DNA of 64,000 bases from Niallia alba (GTDB lineage Bacteria; Bacillota; Bacilli; Bacillales; Cytobacillaceae): contig NZ_JABBPK010000001.1 of assembly GCF_012933555.1 (NCBI RefSeq), positions 1,838,001-1,902,000 of the forward strand, read 5' to 3'. Positions 7,309-40,162 of the stretch are shown here, one piece after another; within the stretch, counting starts at the first letter, position 1, and each line of letters starts with the position of its first letter. Made by a program: the position numbers and the translations under genes. The notes beneath the pieces were generated by a model. That model searched no databases. It was not told the DNA's origin and was given only the letters and a program-made list of their open reading frames with translations.

Positions 7309-7440
7309 TTTATCCCACTCTTAGCGGAAAGTAAGACTCCCCCTCAAGCTTATGAACATATGAAGAAGATAGGTGGGAGATCCACTGTCCGTAAAAGTTC
7401 GATTAGTAACGATCCATTCACACTATCGAAGTTTAATTAA
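7309..7440 (+). repeat. bcr1-like repeat, degenerate copy
   Basis: Begins TTTATCCCACTC and carries the GTAAGACTCCCCCTCAAGCTTATGA-type block, AGATAGGTGGGAGATC and CTGTCCGTAAAAG, but the 3' hairpin is degraded and the right TTTAT duplication is not clear. Member of the family described at 18732-18890. Confidence 0.7.
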
Positions 7441-7812
7441 ACCACTAGCAAGATTTATTATTGATAGAGGAAAAAGCTGAAGACCACAAATATCCATGTA
7501 ACAGGTCTTATTCCGCAATTCATCACAAAGAAAAGTTGGCATAATATTTTACACAATCAATCCAGTCTGTGGATAAACGCCCATCTTTTATATAAGAGAA
7601 ATATAATAGCCACAACTGTTCCTTACCATTAAAAAAAATAATAAATAGAATTATAAGGATAGAAAGGATAATTTTCATTCTTTTTCATAAGCTATTGGTA
7701 AATTGTGAAAAAGATAAAATTATCCTTTTTCTATTTTTTTCTCATCCACCATAACATGAAACGGTGATGGACAAAATTAAGCTATCGATGATTCTAAGGG
7801 AGTAGTAAAAAT
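7441..7812. other. Gene-free stretch before the GerC gene, with a strong hairpin
   Basis: No convincing coding frame. At 7663-7735 a terminator-like hairpin (AAAGGATAATTTT pairing with AAAATTATCCTTT, then a T-rich tract) points in the + direction. No gene upstream needs it, because ndh already has its own terminator at 7198. It could end a small RNA or a decayed gene between 7441 and 7660, or act in the leader of the GerC gene. Confidence 0.5.
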
Positions 7813-8997
7813 ATGAAACGCTACATATTGAGTATATCTATTTTATCCATCTTTTTATTAACTGGCTGTTGGGATCAATCGGAGTTAAATCAAAATGCAA
7901 TTGTTACAGGGATAGCAATTGATAAAGGGGATGACTATAAATATAAACTATCCATAGAGAGCACCTCTGCAACAGAATTAAATCCGAAAACCGCTCAAGG
8001 CTTAGCCCCTGCGATTGTTTATACCATAGAAGGAGATACAATTGGAGAAATTACCCATAAATTCAATATTGCTGTATCCACTCATTTGGTTTTTTCACAT
8101 ATGCGATTGCTTATTATTGGAGAAGAAGTTGCCAAAGAGGGAATTCTTAGTTTTATGGATTATTTCGACAGGGATAGAGAAATAAGGGATGACTTTAATA
8201 TAGTGGTAGCTAAAGACACAGAAGCAGTTGATTTTTTGCGAATAACGAATGAATATCAAAAAGTCTCTTCTTTGAAAATTTTTCCACAGCTGGATAATAT
8301 GTTAGATGAATGGGGAGGGACACCTGGAATTAAATTAAATGATTTTATTCGTACATACGCATCACAGGGGCAAGTTCCAGTTTTAGCAGCAATGAAAATA
8401 CAGGGTGATAAAGAAAAAGGCGGCAATATGGATAATTTGAAAACGACGACCCCAGGAGCAGTTGCAAAAATTGATTCTTTAGCTGTTTTTAAATATGGGA
8501 AGCTGCAAGGGTATCTAGATTTATATGATACAAGAATTTTATTATGGATTCAAAATAAGTTGGAACGAACTGCTCTAACTGTTCCATATAATGAAAAAAA
8601 ATTTTTTGCTTTGCGAATCATTCATTCTAAGACAAAGATTAAAGCTAGGCAAGTAAACGGCAGTCCACAAATTGATATATATGTCCATGCTGAATCTACG
8701 CTAGATGGATCTGATAAAGCAATAAAGGTTGCAAAGGTAAAAGCATTTGAAGAGTTTGAAGACCTGACTAATAGTTATTTAGAAAAAGAATTTAATCAAT
8801 TAATTGAAAAAATGCAAAAAGAATATGTGGCTGATATATTTGGATTGGGGGAAATATTTAGAGATCAAGATTACAAGCATTTTAAACAATATGAAGATAA
8901 TTGGGATGTAGGTTTTAAAGAGGCAAAGATAAACGTCCATGTAAATGTAGAAATAAAGAGAAGTGGATTTAGAAACAACAGCTATGATATAAAGTAA
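7813..8997 (+). CDS. Ger(x)C family spore germination lipoprotein
   Basis: Spore germinant-receptor C subunit, 394 aa, expected to be lipid-anchored to the spore inner membrane. The N-terminus is a lipoprotein signal with lipobox LTGC (Cys about 19) followed by WDQSELNQNAIVTGIAIDKG, the hallmark of GerAC/GerBC/GerKC proteins. The long C-terminal GerC domain runs about 200-385. GGGAG lies upstream of the ATG. Germinant receptors usually come as A-B-C operons; here no A or B gene is adjacent, so this is an orphan C gene. It may partner a receptor elsewhere or be left from a lost operon. The specific receptor type cannot be told from this sequence. Confidence 0.88.
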   Translation: MKRYILSISILSIFLLTGCWDQSELNQNAIVTGIAIDKGDDYKYKLSIESTSATELNPKTAQGLAPAIVYTIEGDTIGEITHKFNIAVSTHLVFSHMRLLIIGEEVAKEGILSFMDYFDRDREIRDDFNIVVAKDTEAVDFLRITNEYQKVSSLKIFPQLDNMLDEWGGTPGIKLNDFIRTYASQGQVPVLAAMKIQGDKEKGGNMDNLKTTTPGAVAKIDSLAVFKYGKLQGYLDLYDTRILLWIQNKLERTALTVPYNEKKFFALRIIHSKTKIKARQVNGSPQIDIYVHAESTLDGSDKAIKVAKVKAFEEFEDLTNSYLEKEFNQLIEKMQKEYVADIFGLGEIFRDQDYKHFKQYEDNWDVGFKEAKINVHVNVEIKRSGFRNNSYDIK

Positions 8998-9142
8998 ATG
9001 TAGTTACTTGAATAATGGACTGCTTTATAGCTAAAGTACAAAATAAATCAATAAAATAGTAAGAAATAGTATTATTTAAAAAATATAAAAATAGGGTTAT
9101 TATAGAAAGAAATAAGACTTTACAAAAAGGGGAGAGGTAAAA

Positions 9143-9628
9143 ATGAATATATCTGAGGTTATCACAAGTAGAAGAACAATAAAAAAATTTACATCTGAAG
9201 AGGTAGATAAAGGGGTTATTTTGGAATGGCTACAACGGGCAAGATTTGCTCCGAACCATAAGATGACAGAACCGTGGCAGATTCTTTTTGTCGGCGAAAA
9301 GACCCGAGCAGAACTAAAACATAAAACAAACTTCGGAGATGCATCAAAGATAATTGCTGTTTTATCCCATAAAGGAAGGAACCAAATTGAGCGAGATGAA
9401 AATTTGTCCGCTGTATCCTGTTTTATTCAAAATTTCATGCTACAGGCTTGGGATGAAGGAGTTGGAACGTTTTGGAGTTCTGTTGGTTCCTCTTCTTTAG
9501 GACGTAAAACATTAGGAGTGAGTGAAGACTATGAAGTTGCTGGAGTCCTGGCAATTGGTTATTCTGACGAAATTATGGCACCTAAAGAACGAGCATCAAT
9601 TGAAGAGAAAATTACTTATTTAGATTAA
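9143..9628 (+). CDS. Nitroreductase family protein
   Basis: Predicted FMN-dependent oxidoreductase, 161 aa. The N-terminus VITSRRTIKKFTSEEVDKG is the standard nitroreductase opening, where the RRT arginine contacts the FMN phosphate. RARFAPNHKMTEPWQILFV (about 31-49) continues the family pattern, and GVLAIGYSDE near the C-terminus matches the xxGYP-like element. It is short compared with the usual 180-220 aa, as in small single-domain members. The start has GGGGAGAGG upstream. It stands alone with its own terminator at 9661. Substrate not predictable. Confidence 0.82.
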   Translation: MNISEVITSRRTIKKFTSEEVDKGVILEWLQRARFAPNHKMTEPWQILFVGEKTRAELKHKTNFGDASKIIAVLSHKGRNQIERDENLSAVSCFIQNFMLQAWDEGVGTFWSSVGSSSLGRKTLGVSEDYEVAGVLAIGYSDEIMAPKERASIEEKITYLD

Positions 9629-9660
9629 CTGATTAAGTCGAAAATATTCCTTAATATAAG

Positions 9661-9696
9661 GAGAGGCGTAATAGAACATCTTACGCCTCTTTTTTC
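9661..9696 (+). terminator. Rho-independent terminator after the nitroreductase gene
   Basis: GAGGCGTAA-loop-TTACGCCTC stem followed by T6. Confidence 0.88.
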
Positions 9697-38884: not shown

Positions 38885-38922
38885 TAATCCGTAACTAACA
38901 GAAATTAAGAGGAGGAAATAGA

Positions 38923-39051
38923 ATGTACGGATATGGTTATGGATATCCAAGCTATGGCTATGGTGGTGTAGGTTACGGCGGAGGTTTCGCTTTAATCGTC
39001 GTTTTATTCATTCTTTTAATCATTGTAGGTGCAGCTTGCTTCAAATGGTAA
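38923..39051 (+). CDS. YjcZ-family sporulation peptide, second copy
   Basis: 42 aa: [15 protein letters not shown] followed by [27 protein letters not shown] helix and CFKW. The [15 protein letters not shown] core is shared with the peptide at 38780, so the pair arose by duplication; the N-terminal Tyr/Gly tail and C-terminal Cys differ. GAGGAGG precedes the ATG. Shared terminator at 39067. Confidence 0.87.
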
Positions 39052-39066
39052 AATAATGAAATAATG

Positions 39067-39097
39067 GAGACTGATTCGTAGAGTCAGTCTCTTTTTT
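39067..39097 (+). terminator. Terminator after the YjcZ pair
   Basis: GAGACTGA-ttcgtagag-TCAGTCTC followed by T6. It overlaps the last codons of the convergent TatD gene. Confidence 0.9.
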
Positions 39098-39872
39098 GGG
39101 GGATAGAAATAGAATAAAATCTTTTCGTATTACATAAGATTTGCTCATACATGTCTGATAATGTATATTTTTTCAATGTTGCTAAAGCATGAATAATAGC
39201 ATGAATCATAGTTGGAACAGTTTTTTGATAAATAAACGGCCCATCGAATGGCCAAGGTCCATCCGTTTCTACCATTATTTTTTCAATCGGGTATAAATTC
39301 GCGAGCTGTTGAGTTTTTTCCTTATATAAAAAATCAGGTGTAAGGGAAATATAATAATTATTTCTTATCATCTGTTCAATTGTTTTTGGGCTTCCTTTAA
39401 ACCAATGAAAATGAGCATTTGAAAAGCTATGCTTTTCAAGTAGATTAATGACAATATCAGCTTCTTCATAAATACTATGAAGAACAATAGGTTTTTTTAA
39501 TTTTTTTGCTAATACAATAAATTGCTCGAGGATTTCAATATAAGGTTGTAAAGGAATAGAAGATGGATCTTTTCTCCTTATATAATGAGGTAAGCCGATC
39601 TCGCCAAGGGCAATAGCGCTACTCTGGTTTGCTTCAATCCATGCAAATAAATTGGATATAGATGTATCAGAAGGTAATGATTGTTCTGGATGATAACCAT
39701 AGGCTGCTTTAATAAAGTCGAACTCTTTGCTTAATTTTTCTGTTTGTTTACATGAATCTAAATTCATAGAGACAGAGATAGCAGCAATTAATGTTTCTTC
39801 TTTAAAAAACTGGCTGATTTCGTCTCGATTGTACTGGTCAATATGAATATGGGCATCTATAATTTGGTTCAT
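39084..39872 (-). CDS. TatD-family metal-dependent hydrolase
   Basis: 262-aa TIM-barrel hydrolase, a putative Mg-dependent nuclease. Metal ligands in order: DAHIHID (about 6-12), GEIGLP (about 93-98), VLHS, HFHWFKG and VETDGPW (about 205-211). The last is the Asp typical of TatD. It resembles the smaller TatD-like proteins of Bacillus (e.g. YabD relatives), but the gene is not in the yabD locus. Its 3' end overlaps the terminator of the YjcZ genes. Confidence 0.85.
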   Translation of the reverse strand: MNQIIDAHIHIDQYNRDEISQFFKEETLIAAISVSMNLDSCKQTEKLSKEFDFIKAAYGYHPEQSLPSDTSISNLFAWIEANQSSAIALGEIGLPHYIRRKDPSSIPLQPYIEILEQFIVLAKKLKKPIVLHSIYEEADIVINLLEKHSFSNAHFHWFKGSPKTIEQMIRNNYYISLTPDFLYKEKTQQLANLYPIEKIMVETDGPWPFDGPFIYQKTVPTMIHAIIHALATLKKYTLSDMYEQILCNTKRFYSISIPQKRD

Positions 39873-40162
39873 TTACATCACCTTTTTTGTAGTATAAGGA
39901 AAGGAGTGGAGATATTTGTAGCCTCATTGTATTCTCTTTATCCCGCTTCATTAAAATAACATGGTCATCCCTGTTGAAATTATCTTTATTATAACAGAAT
40001 GTATTATAAAAAATATCTGTACGAGATAAAGAAAACTTCCATCAGTGGAAGACTTATGCTCGTTAAGAATGGGATAATTTCCAAGCAAGAGCACATTCAT
40101 TTTGAGTAGCTTCTAGGGTTTGCTAAAATGAATGGATAACGAAGTGTGAGGGGGAATTTTGG
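39873..40162. other. Gap with a short bcr1-like derivative
   Basis: A 53-bp derivative lies at 40026-40078 (inverted: ATAAAGAAAACTTCCATCAGTGG at the left, CGTTAAGAATGGGATAAT at the right), keeping both ends of the element. A further TTTATCCCGC start at 39936 may be another relic. No gene. Confidence 0.5.
40026..40078 (-). repeat. bcr1-like repeat, 53-bp derivative
   Basis: Outer ends of the repeat joined directly, flanked by ATAAA and ATAAT; see the full copies for the consensus. Confidence 0.6.

Follow-up and report, generated by a model that had tools for sequence, protein, structure and literature searches.

The window analyzed here, a 64-kb stretch of the chromosome of Niallia alba, carries several copies of a mobile repeat of about 155 bases without a gene of its own. 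We propose that this repeat is a non-autonomous element that most probably moves by single-strand ("peel and paste") transposition of the IS200/IS605 type, because its unduplicated target, its constant right site, the hairpins near both of its ends, and its preference for the lagging-strand template match what is described for ISDra2 and IS608. These two insertion sequences insert as single strands 3' of a target, without duplicating it and on the lagging strand (PMC8612924). A first-pass annotation of the window had described a structured, mobile repeat that lacks open reading frames (ORFs), lies outside the Bacillus cereus group, and has its mobilizing machinery elsewhere, and all of this is borne out, the element indeed having no ORF.

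Ends and empty sites

Ends were analyzed for 98 placed copies in the host genome, of which the 88 with both ends readable were kept. The left pentamer is TTTAT in 63 of these copies; TTTAC (5), TTTGT (4), TTTAG (1), and other variants account for the rest. The right pentamer, in contrast, is TTTAT in 80. Both sides carry TTTAT in 56 copies; departures are confined to the left in 24 and to the right in 7, and several of the left-only departures sit in copies whose ends are otherwise perfect. A non-TTTAT pentamer shared by both sides was found in none of the 88, the one printed TTATC/TTATC pair being TTTAT read one base off.

Empty sites were read in relatives with roughly 80 to 90% identity around the window. 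Where the window has its copy at 18732, four relatives (G001, G002, G004, and G010) have GTTTGGATTTATRTTGACA, or nearly so, with a single TTTAT. Also, ten loci with variant left pentamers were queried, of which six were inspected, two of them giving a clean reading. At C1:1399834, the filled site has TTTAC on the left and TTTAT followed by CGACACC on the right, and the empty site in two relatives is TTTGT followed by CGAYACC. At 4680376, TTTGT on the left and TTTAT followed by GTGTCAT on the right correspond to TTTAT followed by GYGTCAT in four relatives. The readable empty sites thus hold one pentamer and lack exactly the element. For the window copy at 25778, the flanks in the relatives that lack the element have diverged, and no TTTAT is readable there.

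Because empty sites carry one pentamer, the left pentamer varies, and the right one is constant, each insertion contributes a single unit, with a TTTAT of its own at the right end. The left pentamer is therefore the target and the right one part of the element, and the TTTAT target duplication of the first-pass annotation is not upheld.

One G004 contig that carries a copy, C245, was left out of the empty-site counts. This 4.5-kb contig (L343, L046), from a genome of the same genus as the host, is 99% identical to a host flank, whereas another G004 contig is 80% identical; transfer or contamination is possible.

Replication strand bias

In the host genome, whose dnaA gene lies at base 1, 134 listed matches of at least 150 were collapsed to 102 copies by merging arrays. 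The first half of the chromosome holds 41 copies on the plus strand and 2 on the minus strand, and the second half holds 7 and 52. Accordingly, the strand written TTTAT-CCCAC lies on the lagging-strand template in 93 of the 102 copies (p 1.8e-18). When copies were classed by their neighboring genes with a simple ORF rule, which left 3 of 98 unclassified, the lagging-template orientation was found in 10/10 copies between co-directional lagging-strand genes, in 18/20 in divergent gaps, and in 6/7 in convergent gaps. The bias is thus kept in 34 of the 37 copies where neighboring genes would not favor it, and gene direction does not explain it.

Two further genomes, from two other genera, were counted, and both agree. 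G256 has 51 copies, of which 41 were listed and 40 used after one tandem neighbor was dropped; 36 of the 40 lie on the lagging-strand template, a value reached in 0/500 shuffles. The strand switches between the copies at 2,659,826 and 2,745,144, and dnaA subsequently turned up between them, at about 2,702,465; in this genome, the replication origin was thus located from the strand bias by itself. In G092, where dnaA is at the start, 60 of 87 listed copies (of 100) are in the lagging-template orientation (p 5e-4).

Structure and covariation

In the copy at 18732, about 10 nucleotides (nt) beginning with CCCAC are followed by hairpin A, a 23-nt spacer, hairpin B, a 9-nt stretch, and TTTAT. The unit, which runs from CCCAC to CACTTTAT, lies directly 3' of a TTTAT-like target. 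Alignment A6 comprises 64 copies from many genera, 56 of which are pattern hits; its columns GGTTCAACTAA and GTTTCACTTTA are invariant by selection, as the pattern required them, and both lie outside the structure counted for covariation. In these copies, the first hairpin pairs ACGGGCAGT with ACTGCCCGT and, further in, CCCCCACCT with AGGTGGGGG, and the second pairs CAATCAGTGGGGG with CCCCCACTGATTG.

The pairing of distant arms is kept despite sequence change, as had been noted from the window copies. Compensatory change affects 23 of 31 pairs, which are altered on both sides, and there are 159 two-sided cells compared with 43.9 in shuffles (0/500 shuffles reached the observed value). Examples include ACTGGCTGT/ACAGCCAGT and AGGTGCCGT/ACGGCACCT. 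A clear excess of G.U over A.C would generally be expected in a selected RNA, although a control with transfer RNAs (tRNAs) included too few tRNAs to gauge it; here, the 46 G.T cells do not outnumber the 58 A.C cells. The hairpins therefore look like DNA structures, and the counts argue against selection for RNA pairs. When four copies were folded as DNA, each had an unpaired 5' tail of 6 to 14 nt and an unpaired 3' tail of 9 nt. A pseudoknot between CCCAC and GTGGG was considered and dropped, as other genera have no shared pairing by eye (uncounted).

A dispersed 220-nt form of the element is found in G092 (L481 to L485), in which an insert, which we take to be REP-like, replaces the GGTTCAACTAAC stretch. 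Because five such long copies share one junction, this composite seems to have spread as a unit.

Abundance and distribution

The host chromosome carries at least 150 copies, far above chance, and has eight head-to-tail arrays of 3 to 8 units each, in which neighboring units share one TTTAT. Within the window's order, 75 of the 249 genomes sampled and 47 of the 106 genera carry the family, counting the window genome. A pattern scan that returned at least 120 stretches extends it to many Bacillales genera, Clostridium acidisoli, and one Clostridia metagenome-assembled genome among the 80 titles shown. The first-pass annotation had reasoned that either the family is wider than the B. cereus group or it has moved between lineages; because the family described here is broad and diverse, movement between lineages is not needed. 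The literature searched yielded no description of the family outside the B. cereus group.

Two viral contigs carry family members, and none was found in phage records. In a viral contig (L099, 1-8448), a family member precedes ORFs whose sequences resemble a holin, an amidase, and three serine recombinases. A short family member also lies in AT-rich DNA of plasmid pNY3A (L041, CP079755.1), which is labeled Klebsiella grimontii and may come from a mislabeled or co-cultured source.

Proposed mechanism

Under IS200/IS605-type transposition, a Y1 (HUH) transposase encoded elsewhere would cut 3' of the TTTAT at the left flank and 3' of the TTTAT at the element's right end. The cut ends would join into a single-stranded circle with CACTTTAT abutting CCCAC at its junction, and the circle would be pasted into the lagging template, 3' of a further TTTAT exposed there. 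As the right end is itself a perfect target, a new copy could land directly behind an old one, which may account for the head-to-tail arrays; these could then grow by recombination. A TAA lies immediately 5' of each hairpin and may act as a guide by pairing with the TTA of TTTAT, and GGTTCAACTAAC, 5' of hairpin B, is a possible guide for the right cleavage site.

A more far-reaching idea, which we offer tentatively and regard as doubtful, is that a single ancient, gene-less single-strand family spans Bacillales and some Clostridia, with bcr1 among its members. Such a family would have been long-lived without a recognizable autonomous partner, would be served in trans by changing Y1 or unrecognized HUH or other single-strand enzymes, and would spread by way of replication forks, its own right end serving as a further landing site.

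Search for an enzyme or autonomous partner

Several results weigh against IS200/IS605-type movement. Scans of 94 Y1/RAYT-like loci (34 + 30 + 30, with some genes scanned twice), which covered loci of the host genome, its genus, and 24 high-copy genomes as well as 30 loci of the RAYT-like clade discussed below, revealed no transposase with matching ends. Likewise, home-made profiles detected no Y1 ORF in 980 kb around elements elsewhere (125 loci). Genomes G162, G227, G067, and G008 carry 12 to 122 copies without a PF01797 match, the strand bias of G092 is much weaker than that of the host, and the 220-nt form of G092, which is dispersed without GGTTCAACTAAC, weakens the proposed guide. Moreover, the empty-site evidence from variant-left loci covers six of the ten queried: at 1361858 and at 4883579, only two of the four relatives could be read, and the alignments at 3619105 and 1974251 are too poor. 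As for the genomes without a PF01797 match, their best dispersed copy pairs are 0.79 to 0.91 identical, compared with 0.98 to 0.99 in the host (G000), G092, and G052 and 0.95 in G201, all of which have some Y1 gene. Older copies where the match is absent fit a later loss of the enzyme, on few genomes and uneven samples.

None of the 94 loci is directly flanked by an element. A good copy (98 bits, truncated at the locus edge) lies about 1.4 kb to one side of a RAYT-like gene of G010 (L089), and loci L383/L449, L387, and L447 show weak or decayed element matches. A long autonomous relative was not found among 141 right-end matches in 120 genome stretches; by eye, for nearly all of these matches the left end is no more than about 125 nt away or the match is part of an array, and the odd ones are decayed, rearranged, or interrupted by small inserts.

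Some Y1 loci of the host deserve separate mention. Of the seven complete IS200-type Y1 matches in the host genome, two lie in the window (2721-3466 and 47686-48417); neither locus has a repeat-model match, and the ends of the one at 47686-48417 differ from those of the repeats. Elsewhere, a RAYT-like Y1 gene (PF01797, 51 bits) with a comM-like Mg-chelatase gene as its neighbor occurs at two places separated by about 20 kb (L039 and L040; C1:4586253 and C1:4566123), with GGTGTCTGACACC-like repeats nearby.

Alternative explanations

Cut-and-paste movement is one alternative to transfer of a single strand. A miniature inverted-repeat transposable element (MITE) moved by a DDE transposase would duplicate TTTAT, with the left variants arising as later mutations, and the 56 of 88 copies with TTTAT on both sides are what it predicts. 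We nonetheless find this quite improbable. The surplus of left-only over right-only departures (24 versus 7), partly in copies with otherwise perfect ends, is at odds with it, no terminal inverted repeats were seen by eye, and target-site duplication was not found; at C1:1399834 in particular, TTTAC on the left and TTTAT on the right replace a single TTTGT. A strong replication-strand bias would also be unexpected for double-strand insertion. That bias might instead follow transcription, if the copies were terminators kept in gene-friendly places, and among the 58 copies flanked by co-directional leading-strand genes, 53 do have the lagging-template orientation. However, under the same simple ORF rule, orientation tracks replication rather than genes in 10/10 copies flanked by co-directional lagging-strand genes and in 24 of 27 copies in convergent or divergent gaps, which leaves this explanation with very little credibility.

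The repeats might also be substrates of a chromosomal RAYT-like (TnpA-REP type) gene, namely the one beside the comM-like gene, in a system resembling REP/REPIN. The clade of this gene (E<=1e-45) occurs in 27/75 genomes with repeats versus 19/174 without (p 1e-5), an association uncorrected for phylogeny and with a cut-off chosen after the scores were seen; it occurs in 17 of 32 high-copy genomes, and the G010 gene with a copy about 1.4 kb away could be counted in its favor. Yet RAYT-like genes of any score are unlinked to the repeats (49/75 versus 98/174, p 0.21), G092 has young copies and no match to the RAYT-like gene, the clade is missing from the other 15 high-copy genomes, and 30 clade loci were without an intact element, none of their RAYT genes being flanked by the repeat; we consider this explanation unlikely. 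A retained structured RNA with a regulatory or guide role, whose spread would be incidental, is suggested by the conserved fold and by reports that B. cereus repeats, including bcr1, often lie within transcripts (PMC3446304). Precise empty sites, the strand bias, and a patchy distribution speak against it, as do the pair counts given above, and the window copies have no Rfam match at the gathering score; Rfam matches on one tight region were all below that score as well. We therefore think this role very improbable. IS110 bridge RNA and group II introns were set aside on general grounds.

Copies and other features of the window

Two covariance models were used. R2, built from A6, combines copies of other genomes with two host loci and one window copy (25778), and R1 was built partly from window copies, five of its six strong window matches being in its training set. 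The R2 scan of the window found five copies at E values of 4e-10 to 2e-31 and two weaker ones (Table 1). R1 matched the copies at 7309, 15265, 18451, 18732, 25778 (minus strand), and 26486 at E values of 3e-13 to 2e-53. Nine copies or derivatives on a shared plan had been listed before; most do share the plan under R1 and R2, whereas the relic at 19184 was matched by neither model up to E = 1.

Table 1. Copies of the repeat in the window and parts of the copy at 18732
Feature	Position	Strand	Basis and remarks
Full copy, with the target TTTAT on the left and the element's TTTAT on the right	18732..18890	+	R2, 138 bits, E 5e-27, copy not in R2; empty site in G001, G002, G004, G010
Left TTTAT, read as target	18732..18736	+	Alone at empty site of four relatives; varies between copies
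Hairpin A, 5' arm (ACGGACAGT)	18747..18755	+	Covarying helix 1
Hairpin A, 3' arm (ACTGTCCGT)	18808..18816	+	Covarying helix 1
GGTTCAACTAAC, directly 5' of hairpin B	18829..18840	+	Invariant over GGTTCAACTAA in A6, string required by search pattern
Hairpin B	18840..18876	+	Covarying helix 4
Right TTTAT, read as element's own right cleavage site	18886..18890	+	TTTAT in 80/88 copies whatever the left pentamer
Full copy	25778..25938	-	R1 and R2 (E 2e-31, in model); element absent from G001, G002, G004, G010
Full copy, diverged	18451..18609	+	R2, E 4e-19; decayed orthologue apparently in G004
Full-length copy, right end decayed	15265..15421	+	R2, E 3e-17
Copy with right hairpin lost or decayed	7309..7426	+	R2, E 4e-10
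Copy with internal deletion removing hairpin B	26486..26581	+	R1; R2, E 0.009
Internally deleted derivative, both ends kept	29685..29749	+	Weak: E 0.009 (R1), 0.15 (R2); read by eye
Internally deleted derivative, both ends kept	40026..40078	-	By eye alone; no match by R1 or R2
Possible right-end relic, absent from first-pass annotation	about 14815..14907	+	R1 only, E 5e-4; not R2

The window also contains a second repeat family of about 380 bp (21723-22109, 28540-28933, 50237-50495, and 57412-57842), with 22 listed copies elsewhere in the host genome at 87 to 92% identity and lower-scoring matches in relatives. The sole gathering-level Rfam match of the window is a manganese (yybP-ykoY) riboswitch at 49123-49218, away from the repeats. 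Two tandem similar stretches at 38791-39038 may, judging from the repeat sequence, encode YjcZ-type sporulation proteins.

Comparison with known systems

REP and REPIN sequences are palindromic, non-autonomous, and chromosomal, with a possible trans-acting HUH enzyme, and they share these traits with the present family. However, the unit described here is longer, has two hairpins and a TTTAT target, and directly flanks none of the RAYT-like genes scanned.

A further comparison is with IS200/IS605 elements and their ends-only relatives, the PATEs. PATEs are reduced to the palindromic ends, and a transposase acting in trans often moves them (PMC7290912). The hairpins of the family are subterminal, as in IS608, ISDra2, and PATEs, and the family likewise inserts 3' of a short target that stays unduplicated and uses the lagging-strand template (PMC8612924). 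As in PATEs, a hairpin lies near each end, and no terminal inverted repeats were seen by eye. In contrast to IS200/IS605 elements, the family has no tnpA or tnpB, both of its pentamers are the same TTTAT, it exceeds 100 copies, and it forms tandem arrays; also, no partner insertion sequence with matching ends was found among the 94 loci, which are a subset of the Y1 genes.

bcr1 is reported to be the most abundant repeat of B. cereus, and the mobility of these repeats has been linked to TTTAT (PMC6542083). It is listed at 147 and 167 bp (PMC2267715), and the covariance model of the present family, at 159 positions, fits a structured repeat of about 150 to 170 bp. The two have in common their length class, a conserved structure, a TTTAT motif linked to mobility, a high chromosomal copy number, and related hosts, and here TTTAT stands at both ends, although not as a duplication. 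In contrast, published accounts confine bcr1 to the B. cereus group, and the present family, hosted by Niallia, is in nearly half of the sampled genera of the order, with many other genera named among the 80 titles. A marker search of 398 genomes found no B. cereus-group genome, plasmid records likewise yielded none, and the family's conserved strings were not found in the paper text searched. By the published descriptions of length, structure, and TTTAT motif (PMC2267715 and PMC6542083), the family is likely kin to bcr1. If bcr1 does belong, then its left TTTAT would be the target, its right TTTAT the cleavage site, and single-stranded DNA at the replication fork the vehicle, which would give a concrete, testable answer to the puzzle of its mobility.

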